Of a DNA stretch of 33,741 nt, positions 1 through 26,591 are shown in pieces. Numbering within the stretch: position 1 is the stretch's first letter; each line of letters opens with the position of its first letter. The DNA lies in assembly GCA_016928395.1 (NCBI GenBank), contig JAFGKV010000263.1, positions 1 to 33,741 on the forward strand, given 5' to 3'. The translations under genes and the position numbers were made by a program. Below the pieces are notes generated by a model. It was not told the origin of the DNA. It searched no databases and saw nothing but the letters and a program-made list of their open reading frames with translations. Source of the DNA: Candidatus Fermentibacterota bacterium (GTDB taxonomy: Bacteria; JAFGKV01).

Positions 1-4
1 GACG

Positions 5-45
5 GGACCTCCCAAGCCATATTGGGGGGTCCGGCTTATTCTCTT
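5..45 (+). terminator. Terminator-like hairpin of an upstream gene
   Basis: Arms at 5-13 (GGACCTCCC) and 24-32 (GGGGGGTCC) pair over 9 bp with one T-G wobble, and a T-rich stretch follows at 36-47. This looks like a Rho-independent terminator for a + strand gene lying left of the window, before the peptidase gene begins at 109. The tail is T-rich rather than a clean T run, so confidence is moderate. Confidence 0.45.
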
Positions 46-108
46 GTGTGTTGTGTGCCTGCCGCCCCCCGGGAGGCCTGTACCTCGTGCTGCGTGGAGA
101 ACCTGCCC

Positions 109-3100
109 ATGCCCTTCTCATGTCTTCTCGCTCTTCTGGCGGTGATGTCATCACTGACACCATCCGACGACCGATGGATCAGTTTCAATAATGACCCTGC
201 CGATCTCTCGCCGATCGGCGTGCTCGCCGCCCGCCGTGACGGTGTGGAGCTTGAGATACGCCTCGCCGGCATGAACAGTGAAGACAGGCCGGCCATGGGG
301 ACACTGTATCAGCGGCTGTCGCTGCCCTCAGGTGGGAGAACCGCCGACCTGGGCCATCCGGAGCTTCCCTGCTACGCCCGCTTACTCGCGATTCCCCACG
401 GGGCCGCCATGGAGGTTCGATTCACCCCGGTGGACAGCCTGGAGCTTTCCGGGTTCACCGTGTGGCCAGCCCAGACCCCGCCCACGGATGCCGGCGATGA
501 ACCACCGTTCGTCAAGGATGAGGCCTTCTACCGAAGCGACGCGCTGTTCCCTGCGACGAACGTGATGCTCACCGATGCAGGCACCATCCGCGGATACCGG
601 GTTGCCCTGCTCAGGGTGTTCCCCGTGCGGTACGACCCCAAGGGTTCCACGCTTCTGATCTACACCAAGGCCCGCGTTGAGGTCGATTTCACCGGGGGCA
701 CCGGCGTGTTCGTAGAGCCACGGCTGCGCTCCCGGTTTTTCGAATCCCTGCTCTGCCAGACGCTGCTCAACTACGACGCCCTCGGGGATTTCCATCCCCT
801 GCCCCGGGTCCGCGAGGGAGAGGGGGAATTCCTCATCATCGCTGCCGACGCGTTGGTGAACGCCGTCGCGCCTCTCGCCCAATGGAGGACTGCTGCAGGA
901 TTGCCGACGGTGGTGGTGAGCCGAAGCACTGCGGGGTTAACGGCCGAAGGCATCGGTCAATACATCCAGAACGCCTATGATCAATGGGAGACCCCGCCCA
1001 GCTTCGTGCTGCTGGTTGGGGACGCAGAATATCTTCCCACGAACTACCGGTACATGCACCCCTGGCAGCTCAACATGACGGCGGCTGATCTGTGGTACTT
1101 CACTGTGGACGGGACAGACTTCTTCGCCGATATCCACTACGGCCGCGTTTCGGTAGACAACACGTCGCAACTCAACCAGATCCTGACCAAGTTGTCGTCC
1201 TATGAGAAGACTCCGCAGGCCGGCCCGTGGAACAACCACGTCTTCCTGGCATCCTACCAGGAAGTCGGCATGTACTTCACCATCACGTCAGAGCAGATCT
1301 ACACCTATCTGAACTCCATCGGGTACGACGTCGATCGGGCCTACGAAGGCGGCTTTCCCCCGGGGACGACGCAGGATGTCATCGACAACTTCAACCAGGG
1401 GTGTTTCCTGGTAAACCACCGCGACCACGGCGGCAGGGAGAACTGGGTGCACCCCAGCTTCTGGATTTCTGACTTCCCGCAGGTGAACAATGGGCAAATG
1501 ATGCCGATGGTGTTCAGCATCAACTGTCTCTCGGGCTACTTCGACGCAGAGACCGACGACACCCAGGGCACCTTCGAATCGTTCTCGGAGGGACTCCTCC
1601 GCAAGTCGCCGGGCGGCGCCATCGGCGTGCTTTCGTCATCCCGAACCAGCTATAGCGGGTACAATGACGAACTGAACAAAGGCCTGATCGACGCGGTGTG
1701 GCCCGGCTTCGACACCGGATACCCCGGGTCGACCCAGAATCCGTGGGAGAGCCCGACATTCCGGCCTGGGGCCATGCTCAACTACGCCAAGTGGTTTATG
1801 TATGACAAATACGTACTCACCGGCGGCAGCGGCTACCCGTGGTCACCGACGACCCAGCAGACCCGGCTTCAGATGGAGATGTATCACTGCCACGGCGACC
1901 CGACTCTAGACATTCACACCGCCCAGCCTTCAGCCATGGTCGTGTCCCACGATGCCACCGTGCCCCTGGATACCGCCTCCTTTGATGTCATGGTCGATGT
2001 TGACGGGGCGCTGGCAGCACTCAGTCAGGACGGGAGCCTTGTCGGGCGGGCCTATGCGAACGCAGGGGTCGCCCACGTGGTCTTTGACCAGCTCCCGGCC
2101 CAGGGAACCGTGGACATAGTGGTGACCGCCCACAATCACATCCCGCACGAATCGGAGATTGTCGTGGTAGCGGCCAGCGGATGGTACGTGACCCTCTCGG
2201 AGGTGGCCGCGGCGGACATCGCGGGGTACGTCGATGGCGTGATCGACCAGGGCGACTCAGTGGCGCTTGCGCCCACCGTGCAGAATGTCGGCACCATGGG
2301 TGCGCCGGCGGCGTGGGGAAGACTGGTGACCTCCGATGAGAATGTGACTATCACGGTCGACTCGCTATGGTTCGGTGACATCCCCGCGGGAGGAACGTCG
2401 TCCGGTGGTGGGCCCGTCTACCTCAAGATCCATGGCGGGCTCTCAGACGGAACCCTCGTACCGCTGGCACTGGAGATCACCTCCGGAGACAGCCTGTGGA
2501 CACGGCCATTCTCTCTGGCGGTGCACGCCCCTCTCTTGCACGTGACCCAAGTGCTCGTGGACGATGCCTTGGGAAACGGCAATGGCTACGCCGAGCCAGG
2601 TGAAGAGGTGAGGCTGTGGGTCACTCTGGCCAATGGAGGCAGCGGAACTGCCGGGATGCCCCAGGCATCGCTGTCCTGCGAGAGCAGCGCGGTCACCATT
2701 CAAAGCGGGGAGGCCGGCTATCCCGACATTCATCCCGCTGAAACCACACCGTCCCTGTCGCCGTTTCAGGTCGCACTGAGTCCGTCGTGCCTGGAGGGTA
2801 CCATCACTTTCGAGGAGACGGTGACGTCCCACGGTCCGATTCAGTGTGTACTTCCCTTTGGGCTGATCATCGGAACGGTTCCGGTGCTGGTGGTGGATGT
2901 TGACGACGAACAGACGGAACAACGTCTTCTTGATGCCATGGATCAGCTTGAGTACCAGTATCGCGTGTGGCGAACCTATGTGCAGGGCACCGTGCCCGCC
3001 GATACGCTCTCACTGTACCGGGCCGTGGTATGGACCGGGGGCGACAACAACATTTCCTCTGCGTCGCCCGCGGATCAAGCGAACCTGGCCCAATACCTCT

Positions 3101-3831
3101 CGAACGGTGGAGCCCTGCTCTTTTCCGCTGAGAACTACTTGACCTCATACGGCGACTCCTCGTTCACCGCCAACTTCCTCCATGTGGAGAACTTCGCGAC
3201 TGGCTACGATGCTAACTGGATAGACGGTGTTGCCGGCGATCCCGTTGCCGATGGATTCTCCACGGGCCTCGCGTATCCGGAGGGGCTGTCGAACACGCCG
3301 GACGAACTGACCCCCGATCCCGAGGCGGCAGCCATGCTGACGGCCCAACCGTTCGATCGGGCCGTGGCGATCAGGTATCCGGCCACCGGGCAGGGTGGCT
3401 ACCGCGTCATCTTCATGGCGGTACCATTCGAAGCCCTCGACCCGGGGACGGCGCCGCCCGACGATCCCGCGACCTTCCTTGACTGCGCGCTGGCATGGCT
3501 TATGGATAGTGTCGATCTCATACCACCCCACGCGGTCACCGACCTTTCCTTGGCACCGGGGAGCGATCTTTCGTTACTCCTCACGTGGCAGCCAGCGTGG
3601 GATAATGTCGGGGTGCATCACTACGCCGTACACCGGGAAACGGCCGCCTACTTCCAGCCCGCACCAGGAACCCTTCTGGCCAAGACACCGCTCACCGCGT
3701 GGATTGATCCGACTGGTGCCGGCGATCCCACGACTGATCACTTCTATGTCGTCCTGGCAGTGGATGCTGCCGGCAACCAGTCAGCCCCCTCCAATTGCGT
3801 CGGCGAGAGAGAGACACCCGTGGAGCCATGA
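109..3831 (+). CDS. Secreted gingipain-like C25 cysteine peptidase, multidomain
   Basis: Predicted exported protein of 1240 aa. I start it at ATG 109 because a signal peptide follows directly (MPFSCLLALLAVMSS); the upstream in-frame stretch from 22 looks non-coding. A propeptide-like region (about 25-225) precedes a caspase-like C25 domain (about 235-610). That domain has LLVGDAEY, the catalytic-His motif HRDHGG (His440) and the catalytic-Cys motif INCLSGYFD (Cys473). The 33-residue His-to-Cys spacing equals that of gingipain RgpB (His211/Cys244). Next come Ig-like beta-rich segments (about 630-930), then an alpha/beta segment opening with PVLVVDVDD (about 955-1130) that resembles the class I glutamine-amidotransferase-like fold of other FCB secreted proteins, and a C-terminal FnIII domain (about 1145-1235). 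No T9SS-type sorting domain is visible at the end. The family cleaves proteins outside the cell; substrate and specificity cannot be read from the sequence. Confidence 0.9.
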   Translation: MPFSCLLALLAVMSSLTPSDDRWISFNNDPADLSPIGVLAARRDGVELEIRLAGMNSEDRPAMGTLYQRLSLPSGGRTADLGHPELPCYARLLAIPHGAAMEVRFTPVDSLELSGFTVWPAQTPPTDAGDEPPFVKDEAFYRSDALFPATNVMLTDAGTIRGYRVALLRVFPVRYDPKGSTLLIYTKARVEVDFTGGTGVFVEPRLRSRFFESLLCQTLLNYDALGDFHPLPRVREGEGEFLIIAADALVNAVAPLAQWRTAAGLPTVVVSRSTAGLTAEGIGQYIQNAYDQWETPPSFVLLVGDAEYLPTNYRYMHPWQLNMTAADLWYFTVDGTDFFADIHYGRVSVDNTSQLNQILTKLSSYEKTPQAGPWNNHVFLASYQEVGMYFTITSEQIYTYLNSIGYDVDRAYEGGFPPGTTQDVIDNFNQGCFLVNHRDHGGRENWVHPSFWISDFPQVNNGQMMPMVFSINCLSGYFDAETDDTQGTFESFSEGLLRKSPGGAIGVLSSSRTSYSGYNDELNKGLIDAVWPGFDTGYPGSTQNPWESPTFRPGAMLNYAKWFMYDKYVLTGGSGYPWSPTTQQTRLQMEMYHCHGDPTLDIHTAQPSAMVVSHDATVPLDTASFDVMVDVDGALAALSQDGSLVGRAYANAGVAHVVFDQLPAQGTVDIVVTAHNHIPHESEIVVVAASGWYVTLSEVAAADIAGYVDGVIDQGDSVALAPTVQNVGTMGAPAAWGRLVTSDENVTITVDSLWFGDIPAGGTSSGGGPVYLKIHGGLSDGTLVPLALEITSGDSLWTRPFSLAVHAPLLHVTQVLVDDALGNGNGYAEPGEEVRLWVTLANGGSGTAGMPQASLSCESSAVTIQSGEAGYPDIHPAETTPSLSPFQVALSPSCLEGTITFEETVTSHGPIQCVLPFGLIIGTVPVLVVDVDDEQTEQRLLDAMDQLEYQYRVWRTYVQGTVPADTLSLYRAVVWTGGDNNISSASPADQANLAQYLSNGGALLFSAENYLTSYGDSSFTANFLHVENFATGYDANWIDGVAGDPVADGFSTGLAYPEGLSNTPDELTPDPEAAAMLTAQPFDRAVAIRYPATGQGGYRVIFMAVPFEALDPGTAPPDDPATFLDCALAWLMDSVDLIPPHAVTDLSLAPGSDLSLLLTWQPAWDNVGVHHYAVHRETAAYFQPAPGTLLAKTPLTAWIDPTGAGDPTTDHFYVVLAVDAAGNQSAPSNCVGERETPVEP

Positions 3832-4748: not shown

Positions 4749-5879
4749 TCAGGAGAGACGCTTGGTGTAGACGCGGGAACGGCGGTGAAGCCGTTTCTCG
4801 TACAGCTTCCACTGGGCCTGGATCTTGGCGTTCTCCTCAATCTCGCGGTTGCTCTCCGCGTGGGTCATGCCGCGGGCCAGGGCGCTCTTGCCCATTTCGT
4901 AGGCCAGCATCAGGTCGATGCCTCGGTTGCGGTACTCCGGCAGGACGCCGGCCAGGTAGAAATCGAGCACCGTGCTGGTCTTCATGGCCCGCAGAATATG
5001 AAGAAAACCTAGGGGGAAGAGCCGCCCACGGGCCTTCTGGAATGCCCTTGAGAGGTTGGGCATGGCGACGACGAATCCTACCAGCCGGTCATCGTGCACC
5101 GCCAGCTTGATGAACTCAGGATCCACATGACCAAGGTATCCGTCGACGTAGAACTCTATCTGCCGCTCGGTGAGCTCGGTGGTGCCGTAGAGATGGGCAT
5201 ACGTCCGATTGAGTACCTGGAAGAGCTGGGGGCCCCATTGGGCAACCAGTTCCTTGCGGCTCCTCTCGCTGAATACCCGCACCCCGCTACGCTTGGCCAG
5301 CACCTCCGCGAGACGGGAGACCTTCTCGGGGAGCTGGGCGGGCACTGTGGTGCGATACTCCACGTACTCGATCTCCTTCACGTAGCCCAGGGCGGTGATG
5401 AAGTCGTTGTAGTAGGGCGGATTGTAGCTCCCGGCGATGGTGGGCAGCTCCCCGAACCCCTCTACCAAGAAACCGGTGGGGTCAAAATCAGTGAAGCCCA
5501 ATGGCCCGCTTATCTCCTCCATGCCCCGTTCAGCAACCCATGCCTCAGCGGCGGCGATCAGAGCAGATGCCGTGCCTTCATCCCGCTCGCATTCAAACCA
5601 TCCGAACCTTCCGCATCTGCGGTTCCATCGCTGGATGAACGGGTGGGAGACCAATGCCGCGACCCGGCCCACCACCGCATCCCCGCGGCGGGCGAGGAAG
5701 AGTTGCGCGTCGGTGTGTTCAAAGGCCGGGTTGCGGCCCGGATCGAACTGCCGCCTCTCGTCCGCCCGTAACGGCGGGATCCAGGTGGGATCTGCCCGGT
5801 AGAACCAGTACGGGAACTCGACGAACCGGGAGAGATCCCGAGGCAAGAGCACCGGCGTGACCCGTAAGGCGGAACGCAT
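4749..5879 (-). CDS. GNAT-fold N-acyltransferase, paralogue of bacterial ceramide synthase
   Basis: 376 aa, cytoplasmic. Recognised by co-linear similarity over its whole length to the protein at 24496-25614: the N-terminal pattern FVEFPYWFYRADPTWIPPL, then FEH..AQLFLA, VVGR, GWFECE, GME.I.GPLGF, SYNPPYYNDF, and a C-terminal FPLGFL ... YRNRGI..ML block. These patterns match the GNAT-like family that includes the experimentally defined Caulobacter ceramide synthase (bCerS), many members of which are still annotated as generic acetyltransferases or 'dATP pyrophosphohydrolase'. bCerS attaches an acyl chain to the amine of a long-chain base. This copy stands alone, 18 kb from the spt/cerR cassette, so it may use another acyl donor or another amine. 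Calling it a second ceramide synthase is inference. Confidence 0.8.
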   Translation of the reverse strand: MRSALRVTPVLLPRDLSRFVEFPYWFYRADPTWIPPLRADERRQFDPGRNPAFEHTDAQLFLARRGDAVVGRVAALVSHPFIQRWNRRCGRFGWFECERDEGTASALIAAAEAWVAERGMEEISGPLGFTDFDPTGFLVEGFGELPTIAGSYNPPYYNDFITALGYVKEIEYVEYRTTVPAQLPEKVSRLAEVLAKRSGVRVFSERSRKELVAQWGPQLFQVLNRTYAHLYGTTELTERQIEFYVDGYLGHVDPEFIKLAVHDDRLVGFVVAMPNLSRAFQKARGRLFPLGFLHILRAMKTSTVLDFYLAGVLPEYRNRGIDLMLAYEMGKSALARGMTHAESNREIEENAKIQAQWKLYEKRLHRRSRVYTKRLS

Positions 5880-17090: not shown

Positions 17091-18062
17091 GTGTCGGCGA
17101 TGGCGGATAAGCACGGTTCGCGGACCGAAGTCTGCATCGCTTTGAATGACATCGATCCTGTGCTGTTGCTGGGCGAGAACGACCGCTGGCTGCGGCTGCT
17201 CAGGGCTCACTCCCACGCCCGGTTGATCGCCCGCGGCGATACCATTCGCATCGTGGGCGAGGCCGATGAGGTTCGGCGCATCGAGGCGCTGGTGCTCTCG
17301 CTTATGGATCTGGTCAGATCGGGGCACACACTGCAGCAGGAGGACATGGAGATCGCACTGCACGTTCCCGGTGCTGCCAATCCGCCGCCGCGCACCGCGG
17401 CGGCGGAGATCGTCGCGCCTCGCCGGGTGGTTCGTCCCCGCACTGCGGGACAACACGCCTACGTTGATGCGATGATGGCCAACGATCTGGTCTTCGCCAT
17501 CGGGCCGGCGGGCACGGGGAAGACCTATCTTGCCGCGGCCATCGCCGTCGCAGCGCTATCCCGCCATGAAGTCCGCCGGATCGTCCTGGCCCGTCCCGCC
17601 GTGGAGGCAGGAGAGAAGCTGGGGTATCTCCCCGGGGATCTGAAGGAGAAAGTAGACCCCTATCTGCGCCCGCTATGGGATGCACTGTACGATCTTCTCC
17701 CCTTGGAGCGAGTCAAACGCCTCATGACGCTGGAGGCCATTGAGATCGTGCCGCTGGCATTCATGCGCGGCAGAACTCTGAATGACTCGTATGTGATCCT
17801 CGATGAAGCCCAGAACACCACACCCATGCAGATGAAGATGTTTCTGACCCGCCTGGGAAACAGCTCCAAGGCCATCGTGACCGGCGATGTCACGCAGATA
17901 GACCTCCCGCCGGGCCAAATCTCAGGGCTCCTGCACATTCGGCAGATTCTCCCTCCCATCCCGGGGATAGCCTTTGTGGAACTGACCAGAGCCGACGTGG
18001 TTCGCCATCCCTTGGTCCAGCGTATCGTGCAAGCCTACGAGGAACTGGAGCGCGACGGCTGA
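17091..18062 (+). CDS. phoH: PhoH-like ATPase
   Basis: 323 aa from GTG 17091, with GGGAGGA about 12 nt upstream; an in-frame ATG lies 9 nt further on. An N-terminal KH-like or PhoH-N region (about 15-95) precedes the P-loop ATPase domain. Walker A is GPAGTGKT (138-145), then RPAVEAGEKLGYLPGDLKEKVDPYLRPL, Walker B VILDEAQNTTPMQMKMFLTR, and VTGDVTQIDLP. PhoH family members are RNA-linked ATPases or putative helicases that commonly neighbour ybeY, which is two genes downstream here. The stop overlaps the pgpH start (TGATG). Confidence 0.96.
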   Translation: MSAMADKHGSRTEVCIALNDIDPVLLLGENDRWLRLLRAHSHARLIARGDTIRIVGEADEVRRIEALVLSLMDLVRSGHTLQQEDMEIALHVPGAANPPPRTAAAEIVAPRRVVRPRTAGQHAYVDAMMANDLVFAIGPAGTGKTYLAAAIAVAALSRHEVRRIVLARPAVEAGEKLGYLPGDLKEKVDPYLRPLWDALYDLLPLERVKRLMTLEAIEIVPLAFMRGRTLNDSYVILDEAQNTTPMQMKMFLTRLGNSSKAIVTGDVTQIDLPPGQISGLLHIRQILPPIPGIAFVELTRADVVRHPLVQRIVQAYEELERDG

Positions 18063-20248
18063 TGCGCCGAAGCCGGACCACCCAGAAAGAATCACGGCAT
18101 GTTCGCCGGCCTACGCTGCGCTGGGCCTCGTGGGCAGGTCTGGCTTTGATCCTCTCGCTTCTGAGGCCACCATTGGAATCCGTCGATGTGCCGATGTTCG
18201 AACTCGGCCAAGTTGCCGACAGGACTGTCATCGCACCGTTTCCCTTTCAGGTAACCAAATCCAAAGCCGATCTGGATCGCGAACGCGCGGCCGCGGCGAA
18301 TCGGGAGCCCCCCGTCTTCCGCCTCATCGCCGGAGCACGAGGGCTGTCTCTGGGGCGTCTCGATGCCCTGAAACACACGCTGCCTGCCTCGGCGCATCGA
18401 GACAGCCTTCAGGCCGCTGTGACGCCTGATCAGGCTCTCTCCCGGTCGACTCGTCAGCTCCTCTCCACGGAAGACACCCGGACAAAGGCATTCGCAATCG
18501 CCGGCCAACTGCTGGGAGGCATCCTTTCCGGCTGGATCGCCCCGGACGGGGTCTCTCTGACAGGAGCCAAGGAGTTTGTGACAGTCCTCCCCGACTCCAG
18601 TGAACGAATCGTGCCCGCAGACTCGCTGCTCACCGTAGATCGCGCCCTCTCGCTCCTCAGTAGCCAGGCACGAAATCTCCTTCCTGACGACGAGCTCATG
18701 GCCCGCGCCGTGTACGAGATCGCCTCGCCATTCATCGCTCCCACCGCGATCTTGGATCCCGCATCCACGGAGGTCCGCCGCGCCCGGGCCATGGAGAGCG
18801 TGTCGCCCTTCACTGGGACCATGCTGGCGGGTGAGGTCATCGTGGAGGCGCACTACCGCTTAACCCAGGCCGACCTTGACGAACTCCGCAGCCTTCAGGA
18901 GGCGTACGCGGCCCGCGCCAGCGCGGCGGGCGCCGCCTCTACCGCACTCCCCGTGGTGGGTCACCTTTTGTGGACAGGCTTCTTCTTGGTGATGCTGGCT
19001 GCGTCGCTCCGCGGCCTCTCGGCAGGCATTCTCCGATCTCCCGGCGACACCGCCCTCGTTGCCGTGCTCTTGTCTTTGTTGGCGGTGGCGGGATACGCGG
19101 CCCGCTGGTGGATCCGGCTGCCTCCCGCAGCGGTTCCCCTGTCGGCTTTTGCGATACTGGCCACGGTGTTCTTCGATACGCGAGTCGGTTTCGGCGTAAC
19201 CACGCTGGGGCTTCTGCTCTCAGCCAGCCATTTCCGTTTTGAGCTATCCGGGCTGGTGGGACCGCTGGCGGGTGCCCTGGTGGCGGTGTTCTGGGTCCGC
19301 CGACTGCGCCGTCGCCGTGATTTCCTGCTGGCCGCGCTGTGGGTCTTCTTGGCATCGGCGGGCGCGGGATTGTCGCTGGGCCTGATCTTCGGCTCCAACG
19401 GCGCCGCTTTGCTCCGCGGCGTCATCCTGAGCGCGGGAAACGCAGTTGCCAGCCTCTTTCTCGTGGTGGTGGCGTTCCCCGTGCTTGAGACCCTGTTCCA
19501 CCGGACCACCGATCTTCGGCTCCTGGAACTCTTGGATATGAACCATCTTTTGCTCCGTCAACTGGCCTTGGAGGCGCCCGGTACCTATCATCATTCCATC
19601 GTGGTGGGAAATCTGGCGGAGGCGGCATGTGACGCTATCGGCGCCAATGCGCTTCTCGCCCGGGTTGGGTCTTACTACCATGACATCGGCAAACTGACCA
19701 AGCCGCAGTACTTCGCCGAGAACCAGGGTGCGGGGGACAATCCCCATGACCGGCTGACGCCAAAGATGAGCGCCTTGGTCATCGCCTCCCACGTGAAGGA
19801 GGGGCTGCGGATGGCCGACAAGGCAGGGCTGCCTCCCGCCATCGGAAGCTTCATTGCTGAGCATCATGGCACGGGTCAGATTTCCTTCTTCTACAAAAAG
19901 ATGAAGGAGCAGAACCCGGATGCCAAAATCAACCCCGAGGAGTTCTCCTACAGCGGGCCAAAGCCCAGCTCCCGAGAGACCGCGGTGGTCATGCTGGCCG
20001 ACAGCGCGGAGGGAGCAACCCGGGCGCTGGATGAGCCCAACGCTACCAGGATCCGGCAAATCGTGCAAAGAGTGATCCATGAGCGCCTTACGGAAGGGCA
20101 ACTCGACGAGAGCCCGCTCAACTTCAGAGACCTGGAGCGGATTCGGGAAGCCTTTGCGCCCATTCTGATGGGGGTTCATCATCGGCGGGTGAAGTATCCC
20201 GAGGGCAGTCGCGAGACTCCCGGAAGCAGCGAGGATAACCCGCTGTGA
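18062..20248 (+). CDS. pgpH: Membrane HD-domain phosphodiesterase, PgpH/YqfF type
   Basis: 728 aa. It matches the 7TMR-HD architecture: an N-terminal membrane helix (about 20-35), an extracytoplasmic 7TMR-HDED region starting VADRTVIAPFPFQV (to about 290), seven transmembrane segments (about 298-480), then a cytoplasmic HD domain. HD residues are present: GTYHHSIVVGNLAE (His510, His511), VGSYYHDIGKL (His540-Asp541) and IAEHHGTG. PgpH enzymes hydrolyse the second messenger c-di-AMP to pApA. phoH - pgpH - ybeY is a widely conserved gene order, which supports the assignment. It overlaps both neighbours by 1-4 bases. No diadenylate cyclase gene is in the window. Confidence 0.94.
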   Translation: MRRSRTTQKESRHVRRPTLRWASWAGLALILSLLRPPLESVDVPMFELGQVADRTVIAPFPFQVTKSKADLDRERAAAANREPPVFRLIAGARGLSLGRLDALKHTLPASAHRDSLQAAVTPDQALSRSTRQLLSTEDTRTKAFAIAGQLLGGILSGWIAPDGVSLTGAKEFVTVLPDSSERIVPADSLLTVDRALSLLSSQARNLLPDDELMARAVYEIASPFIAPTAILDPASTEVRRARAMESVSPFTGTMLAGEVIVEAHYRLTQADLDELRSLQEAYAARASAAGAASTALPVVGHLLWTGFFLVMLAASLRGLSAGILRSPGDTALVAVLLSLLAVAGYAARWWIRLPPAAVPLSAFAILATVFFDTRVGFGVTTLGLLLSASHFRFELSGLVGPLAGALVAVFWVRRLRRRRDFLLAALWVFLASAGAGLSLGLIFGSNGAALLRGVILSAGNAVASLFLVVVAFPVLETLFHRTTDLRLLELLDMNHLLLRQLALEAPGTYHHSIVVGNLAEAACDAIGANALLARVGSYYHDIGKLTKPQYFAENQGAGDNPHDRLTPKMSALVIASHVKEGLRMADKAGLPPAIGSFIAEHHGTGQISFFYKKMKEQNPDAKINPEEFSYSGPKPSSRETAVVMLADSAEGATRALDEPNATRIRQIVQRVIHERLTEGQLDESPLNFRDLERIREAFAPILMGVHHRRVKYPEGSRETPGSSEDNPL

Positions 20249-20706
20249 CGCCATCCCGCCCCATGGTGTATGTGAATGGCCATGCCCGAACCAAAGGCAT
20301 ATCAAGGGGAACACTCACTCCGTGGCTGCGCGATCTGCTGTGCATTGAGGGCCGGCCTGGCGCGGTAGTGAGTCTGACCTTCGTTGACAGCGCCGCCATG
20401 TCCGCCCTGAATGGACGGTATACGGGTAGACGCGGTACCACCGATGTGCTCGCCTTCTCCCAACAGGAGGGAGATCACCCGGCTCCTGATCCCGACCTCT
20501 TGGGTGACGTACTCGTCGACATGGAGCAGGTGCGCGCCCAGGCCCGTAAATACGGCGTAGAGCCGAGAGAGGAAATGCTTCGGGTCGTGGCACATGGATT
20601 CCTTCACCTCCTTGGATACGATCATACATCACAGAGAGAGGAGCTGTGCATGCGCCTCGCGGAGGAGCGGCATATCCTCAGATATCGCACCAGCCAGGAG
20701 TCATGA
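20245..20706 (+). CDS. ybeY: Endoribonuclease YbeY
   Basis: 153 aa from GTG 20245, overlapping the pgpH stop (GTGA). YbeY is a zinc-dependent RNase needed for 16S rRNA 3'-end maturation and ribosome quality control. The zinc motif HGFLHLLGYDH (His117, His121, His127) is complete, and the upstream TTDVLAFS and LGDVLVDMEQV motifs are conserved. The stop overlaps the start of the next gene. Confidence 0.96.
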   Translation: MTPSRPMVYVNGHARTKGISRGTLTPWLRDLLCIEGRPGAVVSLTFVDSAAMSALNGRYTGRRGTTDVLAFSQQEGDHPAPDPDLLGDVLVDMEQVRAQARKYGVEPREEMLRVVAHGFLHLLGYDHTSQREELCMRLAEERHILRYRTSQES

Positions 20707-21581
20707 TGCGCCCCCTTGACCGAATTCGTCTCATGGCGCTGCTGCCGTTGGTCCGTCTCACCCAGAGGCTTCAGGGCCCCTTTGAGGACAGGCTCAGGGT
20801 TCTGGCGCGCAGCGACCACGGCGCCGCAAGAGCCCTCAGTGCATTGCGGATTGCCGCGGCAGACGACGGCACGCTGGAGACCGAAGAACAGGAGATGATC
20901 AGCCACATCTATGAGTTCGGCGAGACCCTGGCCCGCGAGGTCATGGTGCCTCGCATCGACATGGTCTGCGCCGACATCGCCGAAGGTATCAACGAGGTAG
21001 TCCGCCTCATAGAGGAGACCGGTCACTCCCGGATTCCCGTGTATCGAGAATCGGTGGACTACATCGAAGGCATCGTCTATGCCAAGGACCTGCTGACAAA
21101 CATGTCGAAGGACGCCCAGGAGACCTCGGTGCTCGCCCTGGCGCGAAAACCCTTCTTCATCCCGGAAACGAAAAAGATCGATGACCTCCTCAGGGACTTG
21201 CGCCGCGACAAGGTGCACATGGCTATCGTAGTTGACGAATATGGAGGCACGGCCGGGCTCGTGACTCTGGAGGATCTACTCGAGGAGATTGTTGGTGAGA
21301 TCCAGGATGAGTACGACACCGAGGAGCCTGAGTTTGTCCGCCTCGGTCCGGAGAGCTTCCGGGTTGATGCCCGCATGAATCTTGACGATCTGAACGAGCT
21401 GGTCGGCGCCAATGTGCCCACGGACTCGGTGGACACAATCGGCGGGTTCATCTACGACCTCCTCGGCAGGATTCCCGAAGAAGGGGAGACCATCCAATGG
21501 TCCAATCTCCGCTTTGTTGTAGAGGAGATCGAAGGCCAGCGTATCGCCAAGGTCGTGGTCAAGACCGAGCCCTCGCACTGA
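20703..21581 (+). CDS. CBS-pair/CorC_HlyC domain protein (hemolysin C/CorC-like)
   Basis: 292 aa from ATG 20703, which overlaps the ybeY stop; the next codon is also ATG (20706) and has the better spacing to AGGAG. It is soluble and lacks the DUF21 membrane domain. Two CBS motifs are present (REVMVPRIDMVCADI...SRIPVY and IEGIVYAKDLL, then FIPETKKIDDLLRDL...MAIVVDEYGGTAGLVTLEDLLEEIVGEIQDEYD), followed by a CorC_HlyC transporter-associated domain (about 205-285, with VDARMNLDDLNELVG and TIGGFIYDLLGRIPEEGE). CorC-type proteins are linked to Mg/Co efflux. ybeY-corC adjacency is common in bacteria. Confidence 0.94.
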   Translation: MMRPLDRIRLMALLPLVRLTQRLQGPFEDRLRVLARSDHGAARALSALRIAAADDGTLETEEQEMISHIYEFGETLAREVMVPRIDMVCADIAEGINEVVRLIEETGHSRIPVYRESVDYIEGIVYAKDLLTNMSKDAQETSVLALARKPFFIPETKKIDDLLRDLRRDKVHMAIVVDEYGGTAGLVTLEDLLEEIVGEIQDEYDTEEPEFVRLGPESFRVDARMNLDDLNELVGANVPTDSVDTIGGFIYDLLGRIPEEGETIQWSNLRFVVEEIEGQRIAKVVVKTEPSH

Positions 21582-21584
21582 TCC

Positions 21585-21602
21585 CGCTATGCGGGCATAG
21601 CG
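21585..21602. promoter_or_regulatory. Hairpin at the DUF502 translation start
   Basis: CGCTATG (21585-21591) and CATAGCG (21596-21602) form a perfect 7-bp stem with a CGGG loop. It sits between the corC-like stop and the DUF502 ATG (21607), four bases before the start, in the place where a ribosome-binding site is expected. It could restrict initiation or couple it to upstream translation. No T run follows, so it is not an intrinsic terminator. Confidence 0.5.
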
Positions 21603-21606
21603 CTTC

Positions 21607-22269
21607 ATGAGCATCAGGCGAACCCTGCAGGCCAATCTCATCGCCGGCGTCCTGGTGCTCACCCCGGCGGTGGTGAGTCTCTACGTATTCGTGCAGCTCT
21701 TCCTCGCCCTGGACCGGCCGCTGGCGAATGCAGTGAGACTGGCCACGGGCTACCGCATCCCGGGGGTCGGATTTGCCGCACTTGTGATCCTCGTGCTTCT
21801 CGTGGGAGTGTTCACCCGGAACGTGGTGGGAAGCCACCTTGTCGGGTTTGCCCGCAGAGCCATGACATCCGTACCCTTGCTCGGTACTCTGTATGGCGTC
21901 CTGGAACAGACGCTGGGCATGATCATGTCGGGACGGGGAAAGGGTTTCCGGCGGGTCGTGATGGTGGAATACCCAGTGGCGGGGATCTGGTCCATCGGTC
22001 TCGTCGCAGGGGAGGGAGGGATCGGCGGCACGGCCCAAGACGGGCCCCTGACGCGGGTATTCGTACCAACATCTCCCAACCCCACGTCGGGATTTCTCCT
22101 CTTGGTATCGCCAATGAAGTTACGCGAGTTGCCCGTCCCCGTTGAGGAGGCCGTCAAGATGCTCGTCTCCGGCGGCCTAGTGGTGCCACGGCCATTCCAT
22201 CCATCTTCCTCCGGTGTCGGCCACGACACTGACCCTGTGACCAGCGAGGCGGCCAATGGCGCGCCGTGA
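21607..22269 (+). CDS. DUF502 family membrane protein
   Basis: 220 aa with two transmembrane segments (about 10-32 and 54-76). The family pattern is clear: a small N-terminal membrane part, then VPLLGTLYGVLEQ, VVMVEYPVAGIWSIGLV, FVPTSPNPTSGFLLLVSP and VEEAVKMLVSGGLVVP. DUF502 proteins occur widely in bacteria and in plants (LIKE COV). Their molecular function is unresolved; a role in membrane trafficking or envelope homeostasis has been suggested for plants. I see no ribosome-binding site; a hairpin occupies its position. The gene lies between the corC-like gene and recO. Confidence 0.92.
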   Translation: MSIRRTLQANLIAGVLVLTPAVVSLYVFVQLFLALDRPLANAVRLATGYRIPGVGFAALVILVLLVGVFTRNVVGSHLVGFARRAMTSVPLLGTLYGVLEQTLGMIMSGRGKGFRRVVMVEYPVAGIWSIGLVAGEGGIGGTAQDGPLTRVFVPTSPNPTSGFLLLVSPMKLRELPVPVEEAVKMLVSGGLVVPRPFHPSSSGVGHDTDPVTSEAANGAP

Positions 22270-22373: not shown

Positions 22374-23216
22374 ATGAAGCTCGTCCGTGTTGACGGCATT
22401 GTCCTCCGGGCCATCCCTTTTTCGGAGACTAGCCTCGTGGGATCACTTCTCACCCGCCAGCTCGGCCGCATCGGCGTGATCGCCCGGGGCGCCCGCCGGC
22501 CCGGCTGCGCCGCCGCCGCCGCCTTTCAGTCCACCAATCTCGTCTCCTGCTCGGTCTACATGGGCGAACGAAGCGGGCTGCGCACCATCAGCCATCTGGA
22601 ACTAGAAGCGACACACGAGTCGATTCCTCGCTCGGTGGAGCTGTTCGGTCTCGTGGGGTATGCCATGGAGCTTGTCATCTTCCAGGCACCGGAGGAGGAA
22701 CCCGCGCCCCGCGTGTTTCGGCTCTTGAAGGGCTTTCTGCACGCGGCGGATGGCGCAACTCTGGCCGAGGCCGAAATGGCTCTTGTCGCCTTCGAGTTCC
22801 GCCTCCAGCGAGCGCTGGGATGGGGTCTTTGCACCGAGGTGTGTGCCCGGTGCGGCGCCGTGGTGACTGGGGCAACGAGGCTCAGCCCCCGCGAGGGCGG
22901 CACTCTCTGCCCAGCGTGCGATCCCCAAGATGCTTGCGGAGAGACCCTGTCATCAGGAGATTTGAGCGTTTTGCGCGCGATGCTGCTTGAACCCTTTGCC
23001 CGGTGGAGGCAAAATGCGGTATCAGGTGAAACCGTAGCCGCGCTCTCGCGCATCGCACGAAGTGTGTGGCAGATACACGCCCCGGCGCCCACTCGGAGCA
23101 GCTCTTTGGCGTTTCTTGCCGACGTGCGCAGCGACGGCTATGGGAAATCCGGGACGAGATCCGGGGAAAACGCCGGCGCCAAGGATTTCGCATCACGCCG
23201 ACCAATGACGCAATGA
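22374..23216 (+). CDS. recO: DNA repair protein RecO
   Basis: 280 aa. RecO helps load RecA onto SSB-coated single-stranded DNA together with RecR. The N-terminal OB fold (VRVDGIVLRAIPFSETSLV ... GRIGVIARGARRP) is followed by a helical region. A zinc finger has CARCGAVV (about residues 161-164) and CPAC. The C-terminal 25 residues are Ser/Gly/Arg-rich and unlikely to be structured. ATG 22374 is preceded by GGGGA. A gap of 101 bp separates it from the ceramide cassette. Confidence 0.93.
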   Translation: MKLVRVDGIVLRAIPFSETSLVGSLLTRQLGRIGVIARGARRPGCAAAAAFQSTNLVSCSVYMGERSGLRTISHLELEATHESIPRSVELFGLVGYAMELVIFQAPEEEPAPRVFRLLKGFLHAADGATLAEAEMALVAFEFRLQRALGWGLCTEVCARCGAVVTGATRLSPREGGTLCPACDPQDACGETLSSGDLSVLRAMLLEPFARWRQNAVSGETVAALSRIARSVWQIHAPAPTRSSSLAFLADVRSDGYGKSGTRSGENAGAKDFASRRPMTQ

Positions 23217-23317: not shown

Positions 23318-24499
23318 ATGGACCTGTTCGAGAAGTGTTACCAGTTTACCGAGGCCAAAGAAGTCATGGCCATGGGGATCTACCCGTTCTTCCGCCCCAT
23401 CGAGTCGTTCCAGGAGACGCTGGCGCGCATCGACGGCAAGGAAGTAATCATGATCGGGTCCAACAACTACCTCGGGCTTACCCACCACCCGAAGGTCATT
23501 CAGGCAGCCAGGGCGGCCCTTGAGCGCTATGGATCCGGATGCACGGGATCCCGCTTCCTCAATGGAACCCTGACCCTCCATGAAGAACTGGAGCACCGGC
23601 TTGCCCGCTTCGTGGGCAAGGAAGCGGCCTTGGTCTTCAGCACCGGCTTCCAGGTGAACCTGGGGGTCATTTCTTCGCTGGTGGGCCGAAACGAACTGAC
23701 CATCACCGACCGCGAAGATCACGCCAGCATCGTGGACGGGTGCCGCCTGAGCTTTGGCAAGAATCTCAAGTTCCCCCATGGCAACATGGAGGCCCTGGAG
23801 AGCATTCTCGTCGCCAACAAGGATCGCCCCAAGCTCATTATCGTCGATGGCGTCTTTAGCATGGGAGGGGATCTCGCCGATCTACCGTCACTGGTGGATC
23901 TGGCCCGGCGGTACGATGCCCGGCTCCTGGTGGATGATGCGCACGGCATCGGCGTCGTGGGGACGACAGGCAGAGGCACTGCCGAGCATTTCGGGCTCAC
24001 CCAGCAGGTCGATCTTATCATGGGGACCTTCAGCAAGTCCTTCGCATCGCTGGGCGGGTTCATCGCGGGAGAGGAACAGGTCATTCACTACATCAAGCAT
24101 CACTCCCGCAGCTTCATCTTCTCGGCGAGCATGCCCCCTGCGTCCGTTGCGGCGGCCATGGCGGCGCTGGAAGTACTCGAAGAGGAGCCCGAACGCGTGC
24201 AGCGCCTGCACGCCATCGCCGAACGGATGCAACGGGGATTCCGGGAGCTGGGATTCGACGTGGGCGGCAGCCAGACCGCCATCATCCCTATCAAGGTGGG
24301 CCTGGGTATGCTGGGCACGTTCCGTTTCTGGAAATCCCTCCTGGAAGAAGGCGTGTTCACCAATCCCGTGATCCCGCCGGCAGTGACTCCCGGGGATGAA
24401 CTGCTGCGAACAAGCTACATGGCAACCCACGAGGACTATCAACTGGAGAAGGTGCTGGCCGTGTTCGCCAAGGTCGGCAAAGACTACGGGATCCTATGA
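23318..24499 (+). CDS. spt: Serine palmitoyltransferase (AONS family, PLP-dependent)
   Basis: 393 aa; GGAGG lies just upstream of the ATG. SPT condenses serine with a long acyl thioester to give 3-ketosphinganine, the first step of sphingolipid synthesis. The PLP alpha-oxoamine synthase motifs are present: GSNNYLGLTHHP, GSGCTGSRFLNGTLTLHEELE, DREDHASIVDG (the PLP-stacking His), LLVDDAHGIGVVG, and GTFSKSFASLGGFIAG with the Schiff-base Lys240. The N-terminal GIYPFFRPIES stretch and FIFSASMPP resemble the soluble bacterial SPTs of Bacteroides and Sphingomonas rather than KBL or BioF. The next two genes, a ceramide-synthase-type acyltransferase and a CerR-type reductase, settle the choice of SPT among AONS enzymes. 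It overlaps the next gene by 4 bp (ATGA). Confidence 0.92.
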   Translation: MDLFEKCYQFTEAKEVMAMGIYPFFRPIESFQETLARIDGKEVIMIGSNNYLGLTHHPKVIQAARAALERYGSGCTGSRFLNGTLTLHEELEHRLARFVGKEAALVFSTGFQVNLGVISSLVGRNELTITDREDHASIVDGCRLSFGKNLKFPHGNMEALESILVANKDRPKLIIVDGVFSMGGDLADLPSLVDLARRYDARLLVDDAHGIGVVGTTGRGTAEHFGLTQQVDLIMGTFSKSFASLGGFIAGEEQVIHYIKHHSRSFIFSASMPPASVAAAMAALEVLEEEPERVQRLHAIAERMQRGFRELGFDVGGSQTAIIPIKVGLGMLGTFRFWKSLLEEGVFTNPVIPPAVTPGDELLRTSYMATHEDYQLEKVLAVFAKVGKDYGIL

Positions 24500-25614
24500 G
24501 CCTGCAGGTCAGGCAGGTACGAACGAAGCGAGACCTGGCGCGCTTCCAGAGCCTGCCATGGCGGATCTACCGTGACGACACGACGTGGGTACCGCCGCTT
24601 TTGAGCCAGGAACGCGCCCTGCTGTGGCCCGGGCGTCACCCCTTCCATGAGCATGCCCTCACCGCGCTGTTTCTCGCCACGAATGGCAGCCGGGTGGTGG
24701 GCCGGATCGGTGTGTGCCTGAACGAGCAGCATAACGTGTTTCAGGGCGAGCGCATGGGGTTCTTCGGGTTTTTCGAATGCGAAGACGACCAGGCAGCGGC
24801 CGACGCACTGGTGGGGGCCTCCCGGGACTGGCTTCTCGGTCAGGGAATGGAGCGGATGCGGGGCCCCTTCAACTGGTCGACCAACGAGGCGTGCGGCCTG
24901 CTGATAGAGGGATTCGACCACCCGCCCATGGTGCTCATGACGTATAACCCGCCGTATTACGAGGCCCTCCTGGAGACGACAGGGCTCACCAAAATCAAAG
25001 ACCTGTTCGCTTTTGAGTTATTCACCACGGGTCCGGAGCCCGAACGGGTGGCCCGCATCGCGGCGCGGGCGATGCAGCGTGCCGGCATTACCCTCCGATG
25101 CATGAATATGAAACGATTGATTGAAGATGCCGCGGTCCTCAGGGATATCTACAATGAAGCGTGGAAGAACAACTGGGGATTTGTGCCCATGACGTCCCGG
25201 GAGTTCGAGCACTTGGCCAAGGATATCCGTTCAGTGATCGATCCCCGCCTCATACTCATTGCGGAACATGAGGGCACACCGGTCGCGTTCACCCTGTCGC
25301 TTCCCAATGTCAACCACGTGCTCAAGCACTTGAACGGCCGCATGTTTCCCTTCGGCTTCCTGAAGGCCCTCTGGTATGGACGTCGCATTCCCGAGGCCCG
25401 CCTTATCACGCTGGGGGTCAAGGAGGGGTTTCGGCGCCGGGGTATCGAAGCGGTGCTCATGCTGGAGTCATTCCGGCAGGGCCACCTGGCAGGGTACACC
25501 CACGGCGAGATGGGATGGGTACTGGAGAACAATGAACTCATGATCCGGGATATCGAGGCCATGGGAGGACGCCGCTACAAAACCTATCGGATCTACGAGA
25601 CTCCCCTCGGCTGA
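24496..25614 (+). CDS. bcerS: Bacterial ceramide synthase (GNAT-type)
   Basis: 372 aa, ATG overlapping the spt stop. Family signature: FQSLPWRIYRDDTTWVPPL near the N-terminus, FHEHALTALFLATN, VVGRIGVCLN, FGFFECEDD, GMERMRGPFNWSTNEACGLLIEGF, YNPPYYEALLETTG, and a C-terminal GNAT lobe with LITLGVKEGFRRRGIEAVLM, in which RRRG replaces the acetyl-CoA-binding RxxGxG/A. This is the GNAT-like family containing the bacterial ceramide synthase characterised in Caulobacter, which N-acylates a 3-keto long-chain base or sphinganine. No dedicated acyl carrier protein or acyl-CoA synthetase gene is next to it, unlike in Caulobacter. It is a paralogue of the protein at 4749-5879. Confidence 0.85.
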   Translation: MSLQVRQVRTKRDLARFQSLPWRIYRDDTTWVPPLLSQERALLWPGRHPFHEHALTALFLATNGSRVVGRIGVCLNEQHNVFQGERMGFFGFFECEDDQAAADALVGASRDWLLGQGMERMRGPFNWSTNEACGLLIEGFDHPPMVLMTYNPPYYEALLETTGLTKIKDLFAFELFTTGPEPERVARIAARAMQRAGITLRCMNMKRLIEDAAVLRDIYNEAWKNNWGFVPMTSREFEHLAKDIRSVIDPRLILIAEHEGTPVAFTLSLPNVNHVLKHLNGRMFPFGFLKALWYGRRIPEARLITLGVKEGFRRRGIEAVLMLESFRQGHLAGYTHGEMGWVLENNELMIRDIEAMGGRRYKTYRIYETPLG

Positions 25615-25616
25615 CC

Positions 25617-26591
25617 ATGGCCACTGACCTGGTAACCGGGGCGAGCGGTTTCATCGGGTCGCATGTGGTGGATCATCTCCTCAGTCGGGGCCGATCCGTA
25701 CGGGTCCTTCTCAGGCCCGCCTCATCGCTCCAGTGGCTTCCCGCCGACCACATCGAGGTCATACGCCTCGCGGCCTGGGGCATAGACAGCCTGACGTCGG
25801 CGCTAGCCGGCATCGACCGGGTGTACCATGTGGCAGGGACCACCCATGCGGCAAATCGGGCGGCGTTCTTCGCATTTCACGTTGACGGCACCAAATCACT
25901 GCTGGAGGCATGCCGCCGCGGGGGCACTGTGGGCCGAGTAATCGTGTTCTCCTCCCTGGCCGCCGCGGGGCCGAGCCCCACGGGCAGGCCATTGCACGAA
26001 ACCGACCCTCCAGGGCCGGTGTCTTGGTATGGTCAGAGCAAGCTGGCTCAGGAAGAGGTGGCCCTCTCCTACGCGGATACGCTGAGCATCGTCATCCTGC
26101 GCCCCCCCGCGGTCTATGGCCCGCGGGATCGTGATTTCCTGCCCCTGTTCCAGGTGGCGCGCCGCGGCCTGCTGCCGGCCCCGGCCCATGGCACCCAGAG
26201 CTTCACCCACGTGGGCGACGTGGTAGCCGGGGCATGGGCTGCGGGACAGGGCGTGGTTCCCTCCGGCGGCGTCTACTTCATCAGCTCGCGGGAAGTCATT
26301 ACGTGGCAAGGCCTGGCCCAGGTGCTGGGGAAGGAGCTGGGCCGCACGATACGCGTGATCCCTGTGCCCCGCATGGCCTTGTCGGCCATCGGCTGGGCAA
26401 GCCGCGCGCTGGAGCGGCTCACCGGCACATCCATCCCGCTGGATCGCAACAAGATCATGGAGGCCCGTTTCCCCCATTGGGTCTGCTGGCCATCCAAGGC
26501 AGAGCGGGAGCTGGGGTTTTGCCCCGCCCTTGATCTGTCGGAGGGCATCGCCAGAACCATCGGGTGGTACCGTGAGCGGGGAGCGCTGTAG
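25617..26591 (+). CDS. cerR: NAD(P)-dependent extended SDR, CerR-type ketone reductase
   Basis: 324 aa, starting 2 nt after the ceramide synthase stop. It is an extended short-chain dehydrogenase/epimerase. The nucleotide-binding motif is TGASGFIG (7-14), the catalytic pair is YGQSK (Tyr138, Lys142) with the upstream VFSSLAAAG serine, then ILRPPAVYGPRD and a C-terminal WPSKAERELGF as in epimerase-like SDRs. In Caulobacter and relatives an epimerase-annotated SDR (CerR) reduces the 3-keto group in ceramide synthesis, and it sits with spt and the GNAT-type synthase as here. Assignment rests on context plus fold; a nucleotide-sugar or sterol substrate cannot be excluded from sequence alone. Confidence 0.85.
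   Translation: MATDLVTGASGFIGSHVVDHLLSRGRSVRVLLRPASSLQWLPADHIEVIRLAAWGIDSLTSALAGIDRVYHVAGTTHAANRAAFFAFHVDGTKSLLEACRRGGTVGRVIVFSSLAAAGPSPTGRPLHETDPPGPVSWYGQSKLAQEEVALSYADTLSIVILRPPAVYGPRDRDFLPLFQVARRGLLPAPAHGTQSFTHVGDVVAGAWAAGQGVVPSGGVYFISSREVITWQGLAQVLGKELGRTIRVIPVPRMALSAIGWASRALERLTGTSIPLDRNKIMEARFPHWVCWPSKAERELGFCPALDLSEGIARTIGWYRERGAL

Follow-up and report, generated by a model that had tools for sequence, protein, structure and literature searches.

The window, by which we mean the whole 33,741-nucleotide stretch of contig JAFGKV010000263.1 of a Candidatus Fermentibacterota bacterium, carries three consecutive genes that very probably form a minimal ceramide-backbone operon, encoding a serine palmitoyltransferase (Spt), a ceramide synthase (bCerS) and a ceramide reductase (CerR). 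The assignment is based on homology, catalytic motifs, the predicted fold of bCerS, conserved synteny and the fact that no dedicated AcpR/AasR was found, and from these we infer the enzyme activities, the acyl-CoA donor, the order of the steps, co-transcription and the final lipid. The enzymes and their clustering are already known from many bacteria; what is new is the lineage and the unusual operon neighbour.

Layout of the spt, bcerS and cerR genes

The three genes lie head to tail on the forward strand. The first, spt (23318–24499, +), encodes a 393-residue putative serine palmitoyltransferase of the alpha-oxoamine synthase family and has a GGAGG-type site just 5' of its ATG; its stop overlaps, in an ATGA, the start of bcerS (24496–25614, +), which encodes a 372-residue GNAT-fold N-acyltransferase homologous to ceramide synthases, and 2 nt separate the bcerS stop from the start of cerR (25617–26591, +), whose 324-residue product is an extended SDR homologous to ceramide or 3-oxo-sphinganine reductases. 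All three have a GC3 of the coding type (0.78–0.79). These coordinates bear out the description, in an earlier note made from the DNA alone, of three overlapping or abutting genes at 23318–26591. The same note placed the genes behind a recO operon, and recO (22374–23216, +; PF02565/PF11967) is indeed found directly 5' of spt, across a gap of 101 nt, as the final gene of a housekeeping run that begins with genes for PhoH, a 7TMR-HD hydrolase, YbeY, a CorC-like protein and a DUF502 protein (17091–22269, +). A consensus-based scan, a weak kind of method, identified no promoter between recO and spt. The three proteins are probably translated from one message, which could be the tail of the phoH...recO transcript; in that case ceramide synthesis would be constitutive.

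Assignment of the three enzymes

The best match to Spt was the Sphingobacterium multivorum serine palmitoyltransferase (3a2b, also 8guh), an enzyme from another phylum with which it shares 51% identity (428 bits) and all catalytic motifs, followed by the Sphingomonas enzymes (about 277–283 bits); identity to the Rhodobacterial type is lower than to the Bacteroidota type (39% versus 51%). Its two top-scoring NCBIfam models are likewise serine palmitoyltransferases, though neither reached its cut-off (SerpalmtaseCFB, 546 bits against 640; SerpalmtaseBetaP, 390 bits against 500). These equivalog cut-offs are lineage-specific thresholds for naming and do not define the enzyme, and a score of 546 against 640 is what would be expected of a protein from a different phylum, but it is not proof. 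In a maximum-likelihood tree, for which, as for the other trees, the reference comparison sets left out the Caulobacter proteins, Spt fell together with solved or assayed serine palmitoyltransferases in a 16-row clade with support of 100/99. This clade includes the Sphingobacterium, S. wittichii, E. coli B and Sphingomonas enzymes, with KBL, BioF, ALAS and a Thermus enzyme outside it. The tree rules out KBL or BioF as the identity of Spt, and two other synthases of the same genome (L002 and L005), which are KBL-like, fall elsewhere, with KBL. Spt retains the motifs GSRFLNGT, DHAS, DDAH and GTFSKS, where KBL has SVRFICGT and GTLGKA in place of the first and last, and alignment to serine palmitoyltransferase places the PLP lysine at Lys240 and the ring-stacking histidine at His135, with Asp207 and His209 also kept. 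The claim of an AONS-family enzyme with SPT-specific features is thus upheld by both the clade and the GSRFLNGT and GTFSKS motifs.

As alpha-oxoamine synthases vary in their choice of amino acid, we considered whether the genes might instead yield a ceramide-like lipid built on alanine or glycine (a 1-deoxy-ceramide) or on cysteate (N-acyl-capnine, a sulfonolipid). According to one study, alanine can serve bacterial Spt as the substrate for 1-deoxyceramide (PMC11334938), and the cysteate acyltransferase 28eh is among the matches to Spt, at 249 bits; however, the best match is a serine palmitoyltransferase, and the motif and catalytic residues of that enzyme are kept, making such a product improbable.

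The bcerS product had no match in Pfam or NCBIfam searches. A full-length match was identified to E. coli B YghO (35% identity over residues 1–368, E-value 2e-70), and in a tree the protein was placed inside the main bCerS group. For BL21, yghO (ECD_02850) is listed as the acyltransferase gene for dihydroceramide synthesis, alongside aasR, epi, acpR and spt; Spt, AcpR and AasR of that strain were tested, and yghO and epi were assigned by homology to Caulobacter (PMC9386255). The predicted structure of bCerS (pLDDT 94) is a tandem GNAT. Among the structures listed, 7q3a was closest (Z 25.0; 304 residues aligned, 3.4 A), within a range of Z 22–25 for tandem GNATs, and N-myristoyltransferases scored about 16.7; the matches listed by Foldseek included no solved bCerS structure. 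N-myristoyltransferases use long-chain acyl-CoA. Together, the full-length YghO match and the tandem GNAT model agree with what had been proposed for this gene, a GNAT-type ceramide synthase homologue.

Our searches also revealed further bCerS-like proteins. One is encoded within the window at 4749–5879 (−), with 32% identity to the bCerS described above and 28% to YghO and with no spt nearby; it falls outside the main bCerS group (98/83) and is kept in a genome of the same genus (75% identity), where it adjoins a C25-peptidase gene. The window itself encodes, at 1–3831 (+), a gingipain-type C25 peptidase with a propeptide and a C-terminal Ig-like domain. In a genome of the same family there are further paralogues at L130 2618–9682 (G002:C212) and L131 3990–12000 (G002:C146), one of them within a run of TetR, MMPL transporter, bCerS and LolA-like genes and the other several kb away from TetR and MMPL genes, neighbourhoods that may represent a lipid export setting.

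The third protein, CerR, is an extended SDR with the nucleotide motif TGASGFIG and a Ser113-Tyr138-Lys142 triad, of which Y138 and K142 are conserved in our alignment; inspection by eye revealed no obvious signal peptide. It shares about 31% identity with the genes in the cerR position of E. coli B and Sphingomonas. Among NCBIfam models HpnA scores highest for it (131.5 bits), and our tree, in which backbone support is weak and the branching poorly resolved, places it apart from the nucleotide-sugar epimerase clade. The HpnA match and the weakness of the tree would suit a reading in which this SDR is a sugar epimerase or an HpnA-like protein with no part in the pathway, to which only Spt and bCerS would belong. 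The HpnA score, however, is far below the cut-off of 367.65, and the same model is the top match for the cerR-position genes of E. coli, Sphingomonas, Streptomyces and Rubrobacter, as well as for an Eisenbacteria one; moreover, tight linkage of cerR with spt and bcerS is seen across many phyla, and a search of 72,556 plasmids with the CerR protein, which gave 17 matches at E-values of 1e-15 or less, returned mostly ceramide loci, with a bCerS homologue no more than 10 kb away in 10 of the 17. The remainder include matches in Prevotella, Parabacteroides and Phocaeicola of the Bacteroidales, an order known for sphingolipids. Based on the NCBIfam cut-offs, the tree position and the linkage to spt and bcerS, we reject HpnA and nucleotide-sugar epimerase as names for this protein, and regard a pathway without it as very improbable; the earlier match of the SDR to CerR is supported.

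Acyl donor and proposed pathway

In Caulobacter-type systems a dedicated AcpR is loaded by AasR, whereas the serine palmitoyltransferases of Bacteroidota are reported to use acyl-CoA (PMC9386255, PMC11324152). We found no dedicated AcpR or AasR either at the locus or genome-wide in this 94% complete MAG. The best genome-wide match to AasR has only 28% identity over part of the protein (AMP-binding), and the single ACP of the genome is encoded within fabD-fabG-acpP-fabF. The dedicated acyl carrier protein and acyl-CoA synthetase had already been reported missing beside the three genes, and this holds for the genome as well; to read their absence as a gap in the pathway, however, overstates it, as they are normally absent outside Rhodobacteria (PMC11324152, PMC9386255). 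Because neither was found and Spt most resembles the Bacteroidota enzymes, its donor is likely to be acyl-CoA, with housekeeping acyl-ACP a possible alternative, and, as the only ACP is that of fatty-acid synthesis, these genes probably encode a ceramide pathway that uses CoA, as is known from bacteria other than the alpha-, beta- and gamma-Proteobacteria.

In the pathway we propose, 3-oxo-sphinganine would be formed when Spt condenses L-serine and a long-chain acyl thioester, acyl-CoA being the most likely one; bCerS, as a tandem-GNAT N-acyltransferase, would attach the second acyl chain, and the SDR CerR would reduce the 3-oxo group to yield (dihydro)ceramide, the acylation and reduction being possible in either order (PMC11087976). 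One could go further and speculate that this sister lineage of the Eisenbacteria makes ceramide constitutively, as a core lipid of its membrane, by an AcpR-independent pathway encoded whole in the tail of the phoH-recO transcript, with the diverged bCerS paralogues making or exporting further N-acylated lipids, an extension that we put forward as unlikely.

Conservation, relatives and significance

The RpoB protein of this genome was, among 18 named genomes tried, closest to that of a Candidatus Eisenbacteria genome (63%), followed by Latescibacterota (59%) and Zixibacteria (57%). As RpoB is nearest to Eisenbacteria, the earlier description of the lineage as Eisenbacteria-like is fair, but the host phylum is a separate one, of which three genomes were compared. 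All three have the genes linked to recO. In the same-genus and same-family genomes (G001 and G002), spt, bcerS and cerR lie in the same order behind recO and are followed by convergent FN3 and adenosine deaminase genes, and the phoH, 7TMR-HD, ybeY and corC run is also present in the latter. Identities for Spt, bCerS and CerR are 85%, 74% and 65% within the genus and 76%, 61% and 56% within the family. Since both relatives keep all three reading frames in the same order, their sequences indicate conserved proteins and not chance ORFs. That the genes are a borrowed or mis-binned island foreign to the lineage, as the 343 contigs of the source MAG and the scatter of the gene set across phyla might suggest, is largely excluded, since the context behind recO is conserved in both kin genomes (mis-binning being ruled out on this ground) and the window holds the phylum's own housekeeping genes.

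More widely, we counted linkage in 80 named relatives spread over many phyla. In 51 of them the sequence extended 3 kb or more to each side; spt was nearby in 38 of these 51, and both spt and cerR in 30, in several gene orders. The gene order of the window recurs in Myxococcota, Eisenbacteria, Acidobacteria, Gemmatimonadota, Streptomyces and Rubrobacter. The closest counterparts in arrangement include plasmid-borne actinobacterial sets in Streptomyces sp. NBC_01001 and Rubrobacter radiotolerans, which have the same three genes in the same order and on one strand, overlapping or nearly so, with 47–53% identity in Spt, but not behind recO. The same order on one strand is seen in Candidatus Eisenbacteria (L086), where, unlike in the window, recO was not found alongside, and in five Myxococcota loci (L041, L044, L046, L047 and L054). 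Some of the latter carry a second bCerS gene directly after cerR (L044 8208–9341, L046 8266–9381 and L054 8220–9329), perhaps with a different acyl-chain choice. The Myxococcota Spt frames (L041 and L044) also appear to have about 120 additional residues beyond the catalytic domain at the C-terminus; the 400-nt stretch between spt and bcerS in these loci contains no ACP gene but continues the Spt frame.

Compared with the Caulobacter crescentus and E. coli B set (spt, cerS/bcerS, cerR, acpR and aasR; PMC9386255, PMC11324152, PMC11087976), the window has homologs of Spt, bCerS and CerR, matching those of E. coli B end to end, but acpR and aasR, present in both of those organisms, were not found in its genome. 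It also differs from Bacteroidota, in which spt reportedly has neither bcerS nor cerR close by (PMC11334938). Here and in many other phyla bcerS shares a single run with spt and cerR, which speaks against a published statement that cerS is found in a different operon in every case (PMC11324152). The earlier note called such a system little described, which is half true: the lineage is new, but a 2024 study inferred sphingolipid capacity for 38 phyla from spt, bcerS and cerR and noted their frequent clustering (PMC11334938), so that this is a known gene set and not a new system. The locus is distinguished by its lineage, by its conserved linkage to recO and by the position of bcerS in a single run with spt and cerR.

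With these results, the growing list of bacteria that are probably able to make sphingolipids gains another uncultured, deep-branching lineage. In addition, a compact three-gene set without AcpR or AasR could be expressed whole, and would offer a test of the acyl donor and of whether acylation or reduction comes first, a point in dispute.
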